A stretch of DNA of 64,000 bases from Actinobacteria bacterium IMCC19121. GTDB lineage: Bacteria; Actinomycetota; Actinomycetes; Nanopelagicales; Nanopelagicaceae. The position numbers and the translations under genes were made by a program. The stretch is taken from positions 1,364,001 through 1,428,000 of the forward strand of contig CP015605.1 in the NCBI GenBank assembly GCA_002284895.1, in the 5' to 3' direction. Position 1 is the stretch's first letter; each line of letters starts with the position of its first letter. The notes beneath the pieces were generated by a model. It was not told where the DNA came from. It saw only the letters and a program-made list of their open reading frames with translations, and made no database searches. Of the stretch, positions 3,988-63,369 are shown piece after piece.

Positions 3988-5836
<1,849 letters not shown>

Positions 5837-7195: not shown

Positions 7196-7708
7196 TTAAA
7201 TGACAAAGAAGTCAGCGTGATCCAGGTCAGTTTTTGGGGCTAAGTCCTTAGTAATTACGGCATTAGCACTGATGCGCGATCCCTCGCCTATGGTCACATT
7301 TCCAAGTACGCGCGCACCAGCGCCAATAATTACATTATTTCCAATTGTTGGATGACGCTTGCCATATTCAATGCCACGAGCTCCCAGGGTTACATCGTGA
7401 TAAATCATCACATCATCGCCAACAATTGATGTTGCGCCAATAACTACACCCATACCGTGATCAATAAAGAATCTACGTCCAATAACTGCTGCCGGATGAA
7501 TCTCAATTCCTGTTGTGAAGCGCACGGCATTTGAGTGAATGCGGGCAAGAAGTTTTAACTTTTTCTTCCACAGCACATGCGAAATCCGATGTCCCCACAC
7601 CGCGTGCACACCTGGGTATGCCAAAGCGACCTCTAAGCGATTTCGCGCCGCCGGATCATGGCTGATCGCGTTATCAAGGTCTTCAATGATGCGCTTTAGA
7701 ATTGCCAT
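7196..7708 (-). CDS. cysE: Serine O-acetyltransferase
   Basis: A 170-residue short-form serine acetyltransferase that makes O-acetylserine, the substrate of CysK. The N-terminal helical part ([17 protein letters not shown]) is followed by the left-handed beta-helix of hexapeptide repeats, containing [16 protein letters not shown] with the catalytic His, [13 protein letters not shown] and [19 protein letters not shown]. It starts 3 nt after the cysK stop, so the two form a cysK-cysE operon whose only obvious promoter is upstream of cysK. Confidence 0.95.
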
Positions 7709-7711
7709 TAA

Positions 7712-8638
7712 TTAGTCAACCAAGTCCTCGTGGAGAACTGTTGATAGATAGCGCTCACCATTGGAAGCACAGATAACAACAATATTCTTGCCTGCAAACT
7801 CTGGACGCTTAGCAATCTCTGATGCAGCCCACAGCGTTGCACCAGATGAAATTCCAGCAAGGAATCCTTCTTCTGCTCCAGCACGGCGTGCATATTTAAT
7901 TGCATCGGCTGCAGTTGCATCCAAGATCTCGTCATAGACAGTGCGATCTAAAACATTAGGAATGAAGTTAGCTCCAATGCCCTGAATTGGGTGTGGTCCT
8001 GGCTCTCCGCCATTGAGAATTGGAGATGCAGCTGGCTCAACACCAAAGACCTTGATTGCAGGGTTTTTCTCTTTTAAGTAACGGCCTGTTCCAGTAATTG
8101 TTCCGCCCGTACCAATTCCTGAAACAAAGGCGTCAACTTTTCCATCAAGGTCGCGCCAAATCTCAGCACCCGTTGTTTTGTAGTGAATCTCTGGTCCTGC
8201 CTGATTTTCAAATTGGCGAACTAAGACAGCGCCAGATTCTGCAAGCTTTTCTGCAGCAGCAACTGCGCCCTTCATGCCTTCTGCAGCCGGAGTGAGTACT
8301 AACTCTGCCCCGTATGCACGAATGAGCTTGCGACGCTCTTTTGAAACCGATTCAGGCATGGTCATGATTGCCTTATATCCACGAGCTGCAGCAACCATAG
8401 CCACTGCAATTCCTGTGTTTCCAGATGTTGCTTCAACAATTGTTCCGCCAGGCTTTAACTCACCACTTGCTTCGGCTGCATCGATCATTGCCACACCCAG
8501 GCGATCTTTAACAGATGATGTTGGGTTATAGAACTCCAGCTTGGCATAGACATTTCCTGCCGCGCCATCGGTGATCTTATTGATGCGCAGTAGTGGTGTG
8601 TTTCCAAAAATTTCTGTGATGCTGTTATAAATCTTCAT
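7712..8638 (-). CDS. cysK: Cysteine synthase A (O-acetylserine sulfhydrylase)
   Basis: PLP enzyme (308 residues) that converts O-acetylserine and sulfide to cysteine. The PLP Lys is K44 in NPTSSVKDR; the substrate loop TSGNTG and the phosphate-binding GTGGTITGTG are present. It starts at ATG 8638 with SD GGGAG 4 nt upstream. The 5' leader carries a Cys-rich upstream ORF (8698-8775), implying control by cysteine supply. First gene of an operon with cysE. Confidence 0.96.
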   Translation of the reverse strand: MKIYNSITEIFGNTPLLRINKITDGAAGNVYAKLEFYNPTSSVKDRLGVAMIDAAEASGELKPGGTIVEATSGNTGIAVAMVAAARGYKAIMTMPESVSKERRKLIRAYGAELVLTPAAEGMKGAVAAAEKLAESGAVLVRQFENQAGPEIHYKTTGAEIWRDLDGKVDAFVSGIGTGGTITGTGRYLKEKNPAIKVFGVEPAASPILNGGEPGPHPIQGIGANFIPNVLDRTVYDEILDATAADAIKYARRAGAEEGFLAGISSGATLWAASEIAKRPEFAGKNIVVICASNGERYLSTVLHEDLVD

Positions 8639-8787
8639 AATTCTCCCTAGGTAAATTGAAATAGATAGTTAAAACTGCAGGCAAAGCGAGCTAAAAATCA
8701 GCAGCTGCAGGAAGTAGAGAGGCAGAAATCAACCACGCGATTTCGCGTGAATAACCAGTTGATGATTGATTTCATAATGCAATTCTA
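8639..8787 (-). promoter_or_regulatory. cysK leader: promoter, Cys-rich leader ORF and hairpins
   Basis: Minus-strand order: -10-like TAGAAT (8782-8787), leader ORF start at 8775, a perfect 7-bp stem cacgcga/tcgcgtg with a 2-nt loop (8734-8749) inside the ORF, the Cys codons, the ORF stop (8698-8700), a ctgcag...ctgcagtttt pairing, then the cysK SD. The leader segment CTCTCTA (8715-8721) can pair over 7 bp, with one G-U, with TAGGGAG at the cysK SD (8643-8649). A stalled ribosome on the Cys codons would uncover the SD. Elements are visible; mechanism is inferred. Confidence 0.65.
8698..8775 (-). CDS. cysK leader peptide, Cys-rich C terminus
   Basis: A 25-residue ORF ending DFCLSTSCSC followed by TGA: four Cys in the last eight residues, directly upstream of a cysteine synthase gene. 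The ATG is 6 nt after a TAGAAT -10 element, the same spacing as the leuA leader peptide, so it should be translated from the very 5' end of the mRNA. Cys-rich uORFs acting as cysteine-responsive attenuators are known in mycobacteria; this one is shorter in Cys codons but has the same position. It is unlikely to be a chance ORF given the Cys clustering and promoter spacing. Confidence 0.75.
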   Translation of the reverse strand: MKSIINWLFTRNRVVDFCLSTSCSC

Positions 8788-8830
8788 CTGAGATTGATTA
8801 ATAGTGCGAGTTGCAAGTAACTTGCAGAAA

Positions 8831-10480
8831 CTACTGCTCATTCCAGCGTGATGTCATCGGCAAACGACGATCTTTTCCAAAAGCCCGGCCTGAAACTTTG
8901 GTGCCAGGTGGATATTGGCGGCGCTTGTATTCAGCCTTATCAACTAATGAAATAACACGGCGCACTAATTCAGGATCAAAGCCATCTGCAAGCAATGCTT
9001 CATACCCATGATCTTCATCAACATAGGCTCGAAGGACCTGATCTAGAAGTGCATAGTCAGGCAATGAATCTGAATCCTTTTGGTCTGGGCGAAGTTCTGC
9101 ACTTGGCTCCTTAGTAATGGAGCGCTCTGGAATAGGAGGAGTTTGTCCTGCAGCAACTGCCTGAGCATTTCGCCATGTTGCCAGCGCCCACACATCTGTT
9201 TTATAAATATCTTTTATGGGAGCAAATCCACCAACGGCATCGCCGTAAAGAGTTGAGTAACCAACAGCTAGTTCGCTCTTATTTCCAGTTGCTAAAACTA
9301 GATGTCCTTCTTGATTTGAAATACCCATCAATGTGGTTCCGCGAACTCTGGCCTGCAAATTCTCCTCAGCCAAACCCTTAAGAACCATATTGCCCATATA
9401 AGCATCAACCATGGGGGCTATTGGAGTGATCCTGAAGTGAATTCCTGTGGCATCTGCTAGTGCTTGCGCATCTTCAACAGAATGGCCAGATGAATACTTA
9501 CTTGGCATAGCAACGCCGTTTACACACTTTGCACCTAGTGCATCAATTGCAATGGCAGCTACTAAGGCTGAATCAATGCCACCCGATAAACCAAGGACTA
9601 CAGATCTAAATCCATTTTTACCAACGTAATCGCGAAGCCCCATAACAAGGCCCGCCCACATTTCTGCCTCATCTGAAAGGGGCGTTGCAATTGAAGAATT
9701 GAGTGAATCTGCATGCACCGCAGGCTCTTGTGAGATAACAACATCTGGCTTTGATGATCCCTCGATGCAATCAATATCTATCACAATGAGTTCATCATCA
9801 AACTGAGCAGTTCTAGCAAGGACACTTCCATCTTTACCAACAACGATTGTGTCGCCATCAAAGACCAGATCATCCTGGCCACCAGTCATGTTGACGTATG
9901 CAACAGGTGCACCAATTTCCTTGGCCCGCTTTTGCACAAGAGCTAGTCGAACATCATCTTTGTTTCTCTCAAAGGGTGAGCCGTTAGGAACGACTAATAA
10001 ACCTGGAGTTCTTGCACTAATCGAATCCAGTGAATGCCAAATATCCTCACAGATTGCCACGGCGACATCTACTCCATGGATTCGAACAACGAGGGATTCA
10101 TCTCCTGCTACAAAGTTTCTAAACTCATCAAAGACGCCGTAATTAGGCAGGTGGCGCTTTACATATCTGGCCTTGATTTTTCCATCATGGATAACTGCAA
10201 CGCAGTTTTTTGGGCCTTTATCTAGGTAGCCAACAACTGCCACCACATCACCTGTGATTGCCGCAGCGATTTCCTCAATAGTTCTGATGCTGGCTGCTTG
10301 AAAGGATGGACGAAGAGCTAAATCCTCAACTGGATATCCAGTCACAATCATTTCTGGAAACACGATCAGATTGGCGGCTTGTTCTTGGGCCTTTTTCACT
10401 GATTGCGCGATGAGCCCAGCATTGCCCGCAAGGTCACCAACCGTTGGGTTGATTTGGGCTAGCGCCACGCGCAACTTCAT
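8831..10480 (-). CDS. nadE: Glutamine-dependent NAD+ synthetase
   Basis: A 549-residue two-domain enzyme. The N-terminal nitrilase-type glutaminase (about 1-260) has the triad E43 (FPEMIVTGYP), K108 (VKRHLPNYGVFDE) and C144 (AICEDIW); it feeds ammonia to the C-terminal synthetase, which has the PP-loop SGGIDS at 299-304. It converts nicotinic acid adenine dinucleotide to NAD+. The ATG is 6 nt after TACACT (10487-10492, minus strand), so leaderless. It is divergent from panB. Confidence 0.95.
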   Translation of the reverse strand: MKLRVALAQINPTVGDLAGNAGLIAQSVKKAQEQAANLIVFPEMIVTGYPVEDLALRPSFQAASIRTIEEIAAAITGDVVAVVGYLDKGPKNCVAVIHDGKIKARYVKRHLPNYGVFDEFRNFVAGDESLVVRIHGVDVAVAICEDIWHSLDSISARTPGLLVVPNGSPFERNKDDVRLALVQKRAKEIGAPVAYVNMTGGQDDLVFDGDTIVVGKDGSVLARTAQFDDELIVIDIDCIEGSSKPDVVISQEPAVHADSLNSSIATPLSDEAEMWAGLVMGLRDYVGKNGFRSVVLGLSGGIDSALVAAIAIDALGAKCVNGVAMPSKYSSGHSVEDAQALADATGIHFRITPIAPMVDAYMGNMVLKGLAEENLQARVRGTTLMGISNQEGHLVLATGNKSELAVGYSTLYGDAVGGFAPIKDIYKTDVWALATWRNAQAVAAGQTPPIPERSITKEPSAELRPDQKDSDSLPDYALLDQVLRAYVDEDHGYEALLADGFDPELVRRVISLVDKAEYKRRQYPPGTKVSGRAFGKDRRLPMTSRWNEQ

Positions 10481-63015: not shown

Positions 63016-63040
63016 AAGAAGAGTCGCCCTATAAGCCGGA
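63016..63040. repeat. rnpB-proximal copy of the 25-bp direct repeat (att-like)
   Basis: The 3'-terminal 25 nt of rnpB, comprising the 3' strand of helix P1 and part of the conserved CCGGCTTATAG block. It is the presumed target sequence that the two distal copies reproduce. Confidence 0.85.
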
Positions 63041-63369
63041 TCCTGTCCTCTTGCGAGGGATCACCATCCATCTAGATCTGTAATTACTTACAGATTCAAG
63101 CAACCTACCCGTTGACTCGAGCGAGCAGCTCTCAAGCGCCAACTGCATGGTCTTGCTCCAAGTGGGGTTTACATAGCTAACTGCATTGCTGCAATTACTG
63201 GTGGTCTCTTACACCGCCGTTTCACCCTTACCAACTTTCGTTGGCGGTTTGCTTTCTGTTGCACTAATCCCGCGGATTGCTCCGGGTGGGCGTTACCCAC
63301 CACTTTGCTCTTTGGAGTCCGGACTTTCCTCGGTACTTTCGTAACGCGGTGATCCGGGCGACTCTTCTT
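63016..63369 (-). ncRNA. rnpB: RNase P RNA, bacterial class A
   Basis: Catalytic RNA that matures tRNA 5' ends. On the minus strand the conserved regions appear in order: GAGGAAAGTCCGGACTCC, GTAACGCC, GCAACAGAAAGCAAACCGCC, GTAAGGGTGAAACGGCGG followed by AAGAGACCACC, and ACAGGATCCGGCTTATAG. The ends pair as helix P1 over 14 bp (aagaagagtcgccc at the 5' end with gggcgactcttctt at the 3' end), which fixes the boundaries to within a few nt. Length about 354 nt is normal. Confidence 0.96.

Follow-up and report, generated by a model that had tools for sequence, protein, structure and literature searches.

A probably leaderless uORF with cysteine codons and conserved internal pairing as a putative attenuator of the cysK-cysE operon in freshwater actinobacteria

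The region upstream of the cysK-cysE operon in the window, i.e., the whole stretch of 64,000 nucleotides analyzed here, is probably a cysteine-responsive attenuator, in which a ribosome translating a leaderless upstream open reading frame (uORF) of 25 codons would stall at the cysteine codons and thereby open an otherwise closed fold. It is very likely that the uORF serves as a cysteine sensor. Pairing inside the uORF exceeds what the encoded peptide requires, and this in-ORF pairing is the new part of the finding. The host genome is a single contig of 1.51 Mb. On the minus strand, an ORF resembling NAD+ synthetase (judged by eye, ending at 8831) is followed by the uORF, cysK and cysE, the products of the latter two being named via NCBIfam. 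A sequence-only reading had placed a 25-codon ORF ahead of cysK-cysE, and the sequence bears this out. The observation is real apart from one counting error: the tail FCLSTSCSC contains three cysteines within its last eight residues (TGC at 8724-8722, 8709-8707 and 8703-8701) and not four, as had been claimed. The features referred to below are:

8806-8817, minus strand: conserved upstream promoter element CTTGCAACTCGC (TTnGCAAnTnGC as consensus of the family), separated by 18 nt from the -10-like box
8782-8787, minus strand: -10-like box TAGAAT, separated by 6 nt from the ATG of the uORF
8698-8775, minus strand: uORF MKSIINWLFTRNRVVDFCLSTSCSC, 25 codons (8775-8698), stop codon 8700-8698, probably leaderless
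8765-8773, minus strand: 5' arm of helix P1, GAAATCAAT, from the G of the start codon into codon 4, window leader fold
8744-8749, minus strand: 5' arm of helix H1, CACGCG, third base of the Phe codon plus Thr and Arg codons, covariation at wobble positions
8734-8739, minus strand: 3' arm of H1, CGCGTG, Arg-Val codons, then U-rich GTTGATTTCTG
8725-8733, minus strand: 3' arm of P1, GTTGATTTC, codons V-D-F, window leader fold
8715-8721, minus strand: candidate anti-Shine-Dalgarno (anti-SD) CTCTCTA, Leu-Ser-Thr codons, predicted by the minimum-energy fold to pair with 8649-8643
8705-8710, minus strand: 5' arm of hairpin H2, CTGCAG, Cys-Ser codons, predicted fold, not family-wide
8671-8680, minus strand: 3' arm of H2, CTGCAG (8680-8675) plus TTTT, predicted fold, not called a terminator
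8643-8649, minus strand: SD region of cysK, TAGGGAG, read from the sequence
7712-8638, minus strand: cysK, cysteine synthase A (NCBIfam TIGR01139, 435.7 bits, cut-off 350.95)
7196-7708, minus strand: cysE, serine O-acetyltransferase (NCBIfam TIGR01172, 219.8 bits, cut-off 210.65)
5824-5777 (region 5712-5824), minus strand: leuA leader MNTRSLLLSCRGGVK, ATG 5824-5822, TACCCT 6 nt before the ATG

The analysis covered the regions upstream of cysK at 80 genome loci and 110 family places, 30 of the latter being already among the loci and 80 newly fetched. Full-length cysK matches in G070:C95, G160:C90, G131, G155, G165 and G184 were left out, as were partial or weaker matches; all of these full-length matches except G070:C95 belong to g8, a genus without the leader. 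With a strict motif, the leader was found in 79 of 168 distinct upstream regions. A laxer motif, which adds L110, L111, L116, L124, L126, L129, L170 and L178 (none of which entered the structure tests), identified the uORF in 82 of the 110 family cysK upstream regions and left 28 without it. L185-L192, which gave no tblastn match to cysK in their short coding part, stand outside the count of 168 and inside that of 110. All 19 sampled cysK regions of the window's genus carry the uORF; counted by genus, it is present in all sampled regions of g1 (19), g2 (17), g4 (19), g17 (17), g11 (4), g9 (3) and g14 (1) and two of four in g16, while with the laxer motif none was found in the sampled regions of g8 (0 of 22) or of g5, g7 and g12 (0 of 4 combined). 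Conservation of the ORF in near relatives, a check that the sequence-only reading had suggested, was thus confirmed. Many g1 genomes are without a close cysK (best match near E 1e-64) and fall outside the count of 82 in 110. The existence of many same-genus genomes of this kind fits the alternative CysM-CysO-Mec route that passages of a published study describe for some acI strains (PMC5301498); according to the same passages, the four acI strains of that paper are without assimilatory sulfate reduction and differ in their routes to cysteine. Also note that the records containing L009, L011, L013 and L022 are titled Bifidobacterium breve or Streptomyces griseus; they carry a cysK and leader of the window's family, and the titles look mislabelled.

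In 76 of the 79 leaders, the exceptions being L113, L114 and L119, a TANNNT box is followed at a distance of 6-7 nt by an in-frame ATG or GTG, and this spacing suggests that translation of the uORF is leaderless. The equal spacing of 6 nt claimed for the cysK uORF and the leuA leader holds (TAGAAT for the former and, read by eye, TACCCT for the latter), and a consensus scan found no sigma-70-type promoter with both hexamers at either of them. Further upstream, the TTnGCAAnTnGC element has a column information of 1.07-1.58 bits at nine fixed positions. A similar GCAACTCGC also precedes cysK genes without the uORF, e.g., in L173, where the box lies 6 nt before the cysK ATG, which suggests that cysK itself is leaderless there. 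In the window's own genome, the pattern TTNGCAANTNGC has 28 matches as compared with 17 for the reversed control pattern, and the window's own promoter misses it by the first base. As TANNNT was correctly spaced in only one of these matches, L234, we do not propose a regulon sharing the promoter element.

Two helices that were absent from the sequence-only reading are located within the uORF. P1 pairs codons near the start with the Val/Ile-Asp-Phe codons and encloses H1, in which the Thr codon and the next Arg codon pair with the codon for the Arg three residues after the Thr and that for the following Val. The wobble bases of the H1 Thr/Arg pair are complementary in 37 of 56 distinct leaders, where 23 are expected and none of 5000 shuffles reached as high a value. 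Among 36 wobble-position pairs in the motif, H1 alone departs strongly, two others having p values of about 0.02. Over 54 nt, L007 and L008 differ solely at the two paired wobble bases of H1, which are A-U in one and C-G in the other. For P1, the duplex energy in 68 distinct leaders is -7.4 kcal/mol as opposed to -5.3 kcal/mol after synonymous recoding (Wilcoxon 4.5e-8), and to -6.4 kcal/mol when partners are swapped between leaders. Individual leaders show this to a modest extent, with a mean rank of 0.28 and 13 of the 68 ranking below 0.05; those g2 leaders whose N-terminus is longer have a weak P1, as do a few others. When the register was varied in the 62 distinct leaders with a standard start, the highest paired fractions occurred at registers -8 (0.73) and -4 (0.78) in the two leader types, respectively; the permutation test flags some registers other than that of P1 as well and is therefore inflated by relatedness. 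Thirty-two of these leaders (Ser-Ile type) form a gapless alignment, in which 85.3% of the cells pair as compared with 23-49% when the arms are slid; 22 cells changed on both sides, as opposed to 6.9 in shuffles, none of 500 of which reached that number. Neither the doubly changed pairs nor the pair types in these 32 leaders were more numerous than in shuffles, and the H1 wobble position is unpaired in 14 of the 32. In the 14 leaders of the Glu-Ile type, which use the other register, 97.8% of the cells pair as compared with 26-47% when slid, and no covariation measure in this alignment was clearly above shuffles. For the 16 leaders outside both alignments, P1 was assessed by duplex energy and recoding only. 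Without being prompted, RNAalifold predicted all of P1 and H1 for the Glu-Ile alignment and, for the Ser-Ile alignment, five of the nine P1 pairs together with a different apical helix in the region of the Trp codon, weakly (-2.9 kcal/mol). Over the leaders as a whole, the analysis shows pairing inside the uORF that goes beyond the needs of the peptide.

The sequence-only reading had further proposed that the segment between the cysteine codons masks the SD of cysK. The complementarity is indeed present, 8721-8715 matching 8649-8643 over 7 bp with one G-U, and the Cys region occludes the SD in the fold of minimum energy predicted for the window leader. Among dinucleotide shuffles of this leader sequence, 4.3% match the exact SD 7-mer equally well (7 bp, at most one G-U), and 31% match some 7-mer over GGAG; because of the latter figure, the anti-SD pairing taken alone is weak evidence. 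Its conservation in near relatives, the second check suggested, was not borne out: the exact 7-bp anti-SD occurs in 5 of the 24 nearest (VDFC) leaders, i.e., L001 (the window), L010, L084, L085 and L093, and L004, L005 and L007-L009 show a shifted pairing of their Phe-Cys-Leu codons with the SD instead. Across 79 leaders, the pairing probability of the SD core (0.76) is not above that of shuffles (0.80) and is little changed by a modelled ribosome stall (0.72-0.74). In the window, it is 0.95 in the free RNA and drops to 0.68 once a ribosome is modelled as stalled on the first cysteine codon, the value of 0.95 being not clearly above that of the window's own shuffles (0.89, sd 0.11). Nor is the whole window leader fold unusually stable (z -0.41, 55 of 200 shuffles being at least as stable). 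Synonymous recoding gave a more local picture. Pairing between Cys region and SD ranked at or below 0.05 in 9 of 14 RVVDFC leaders, the subclade of the window (window 0.03), and in 1 of 10 RIVDFC leaders. The codon usage behind the recoding was that of five window genes, which use TGC less often than TGT, a bias that may favour low ranks here and in the corresponding test for H2. As codon usage came from these five genes and the leaders are related, this amounts to moderate support for SD pairing, confined to the near subclade. The anti-SD was therefore rejected as a family-wide conserved element. What stands of the SD-masking design is a local version: masking is possible in the near subclade, where codon choice favours it in the RVVDFC leaders.

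From these elements we propose the following course of events. The transcript would begin with, or immediately beside, the ATG at 8775, and its 25-codon uORF would be translated by 70S ribosomes, presumably from a leaderless start, as far as the terminal cysteine codons. When charged tRNA-Cys is scarce, the ribosome would stall at these codons and cover the RNA around 8725-8701. In the free RNA, this segment is predicted to fold onto the SD region of cysK and to form a hairpin with 8680-8675; a ribosome sitting on it would open cysK-cysE expression, with either of these downstream structures as the putative output. When cysteine is plentiful, the ribosome would run off and the closed fold would form. 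The hairpin made up of P1 and H1, which ends just before the first cysteine codon, would probably act as a timer, either by pausing the polymerase or by refolding. A pause of the polymerase at H1 is a natural guess, since a U-rich stretch follows H1 immediately before the first cysteine codon. We tentatively extend this idea, while regarding it as rather doubtful, to a conserved timing device: the hairpin, formed by codons near the start with Val-Asp-Phe codons and by the Thr/Arg wobble bases, might pause the polymerase over the cysteine codons until the first 70S ribosome engages, thereby coupling leaderless translation to transcription without a 5' UTR, explaining the conservation of the peptide body and letting the output structure drift between genera. 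If the hairpin is a pause signal, it would show how ribosome and polymerase stay coordinated on a leaderless message that is devoid of a 5' UTR. Since it is visible at wobble bases, it can be tested by synonymous mutations alone.

The output step could also be a different one. It is a real possibility that the region acts by transcription attenuation, with H2, which lies over the last cysteine and stop codons, or Rho halting the polymerase unless a ribosome is stalled on the cysteine codons; all other steps would be the same. Rho was proposed for mycobacterial cys leaders in 2005, as stated in passages of PMC1262725. H2 ranked at or below 0.05 after synonymous recoding in 12 of the 24 VDFC leaders (window 0.03), but at 0.30 or worse in six of them. 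Strong hairpins at or after the uORF stop are found in some leaders (z -3.1 in L076, -2.9 in L164, -3.6 in L118); over all 79 the mean z is -0.62, with 27 leaders below -1 and 11 below -2. These hairpins, however, look unrelated between genera, so that the output structure seems to differ between them, and L103-L107 have almost no structure near the uORF stop. In the window, the scan of 8600-8850 called a single terminator-like hairpin, which is H1 inside the uORF, and no intrinsic terminator in the stretch separating the uORF from cysK; as it was restricted to loops of 3-8 nt, H2 could not be called by it. With hairpins that look unrelated across genera and a negative scan, H2 was rejected as a common terminator for the family.

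Selection acts on the uORF at the level of the peptide. The consensus of 23 aligned peptides is MxxIxxWLFTRRRVIDFGRAxxCxC, with W7, F9, R13, D16 and F17 invariant, and pN/pS is 0.19 across ten body codons in 59 distinct leaders. Following the D-F, D-L or D-Y motif, 37 of the 82 leaders have three cysteines, 32 have two, ten have one and three have four. In a count by eye of g1 leaders plus L013 and L103-L107, the Ser between the last two cysteines is encoded by AGC in 26 of the 27 leaders listed and by AGT in L086; the preceding Ser codon varies, and AGC between the cysteines often yields the palindrome GCAGCTGC. The invariant residues, the single cysteine in ten leaders and the recurrence of an R-R-x-[VI]-D-[FY] core beside other sulfur genes could all be understood if the body W-x-F-T-R-x-R-V-x-D-F acted in the exit tunnel as a nascent arrest peptide that senses cysteine or a thiol, the final cysteine being a trigger rather than a codon counter. 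Part of the conservation of the body can, however, be explained by P1/H1 pairing, and we consider such an arrest unlikely. That the product is a small protein working in trans is very improbable: peptide-level selection would agree with it, but the uORF keeps a fixed position and promoter spacing with respect to cysK, and the families it resembles are named leader peptides.

In a search with the profile of the 23 peptides, the window uORF, itself one of the 23 rows, scored E 2.3e-15, and a second leader was found in the same genome (MSLASFFTKRRVVDYGRLAGSLCRM, G000:C1:483811-483864, L199:1509-1563, E 2.3e-5), 49 nt before a DUF4395 gene. Relatives that have only a distant cysK paralogue (E about 1e-63 to 1e-65) carry similar leaders ahead of rhodanese-like genes in at least five cases, one of these genes being assigned by Pfam. 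Class-wide, 73 of 197 genomes gave a match at E ≤0.01. Among the matches listed from outside the family, all start at profile position 8 or later, i.e., without the N-terminal part, except those in G330 (1-25) and G379 (6-16). Two of the class-level peptides, when trimmed to the core, exceed the NF042934 cut-off of 27 (32.8 and 31.6 bits). The window peptide matched none of the NCBIfam families at E up to 1, and six relatives from cysK leaders gave sub-threshold matches or none (best 18.3 bits against a cut-off of 27 and 17.2 bits against 45), so that neither it nor they reached the curated cut-offs of NF042933, NF042934 or NF042936. In 61 genomes of the order, four had a match to NF042934, none of them above the cut-off; the match in L194 is without a cysteine before the stop and was discarded as a probable chance match. 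Judged from sequence, the window leader appears to work like the known actinobacterial Cys-rich leader peptides, to which the profile links it while the formal family assignment failed. At gathering thresholds, Rfam identified only RNase P in the whole window (RNase P RNA class A, 63016-63365, minus strand).

With this probable member, cysteine-sensing leaderless uORFs are extended to cysK-cysE of abundant, streamlined freshwater actinobacteria. A search of open-licence papers retrieved no report of this cysK leader in this group. The suggestion of the sequence-only reading that the SD-masking form may be undescribed is nevertheless too strong as far as the mechanism is concerned: passages of PMC1262725 describe pairing of leucine codons with the SD of leuA already in 2005, and M. 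smegmatis cysteine leaders are described as translation attenuation in those of PMC13236596 (2026). The leuA half of that reading is accordingly known in kind. In the window, the Leu codons CTCCTCCTT of the leuA leader are complementary to the leuA SD AAGGAG, and its hairpin CCTCGCTGCGGGG-TTTG was called terminator-like by the scan; the leader (LLLSCRG) resembles LeuL1 of S. lividans as presented in part of PMC8079986 and looks like the published LEU element. In LEU, as outlined in the passages concerned (PMC1262725), the SD of the gene is paired with codons of its leader, as is predicted here for the window; the codons are those for Leu, and a pseudoknot is included. At cysK, pairing between sensor codons and SD is not conserved in the manner of LEU (exact in 5 of 24 VDFC leaders).

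Polycysteine leaderless short ORFs are known from mycobacteria (Canestrari et al. 2020, as cited in passages of PMC13236596, PMC9031893 and PMC9094748), and Cys-rich leaderless uORF candidates upstream of cysA2/Msmeg_5788 and nirA/Msmeg_4527 are named in PMC4633059, again in the passages concerned. As far as those sources describe them, they are leaderless short ORFs, as the uORF studied here probably is, and share with it cysteine codons near the stop and a position upstream of cysteine or sulfur genes. In contrast to them, the target here is cysK-cysE, the peptide has a Trp-containing N-terminal extension, there is pairing inside the ORF, and the cysteines number one to four and are often non-adjacent. 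NF042933 (Ms5788A), NF042934 (putative leader peptide) and NF042936 (Ms4527A) share the core [KR]-R-x-[VI]-D-[FY]...C, but the window peptide is unmatched by these families, and its relatives match them weakly, below the cut-offs. In 2005, Seliverstov et al. described candidate leader peptides ahead of cys operons in Mycobacterium, P. acnes and B. longum, with the cysteine codons lying close to the stop (PMC1262725); whereas the relevant passages of that paper report no conserved hairpin capable of termination, the cysK leaders analyzed here have conserved pairing inside the ORF.
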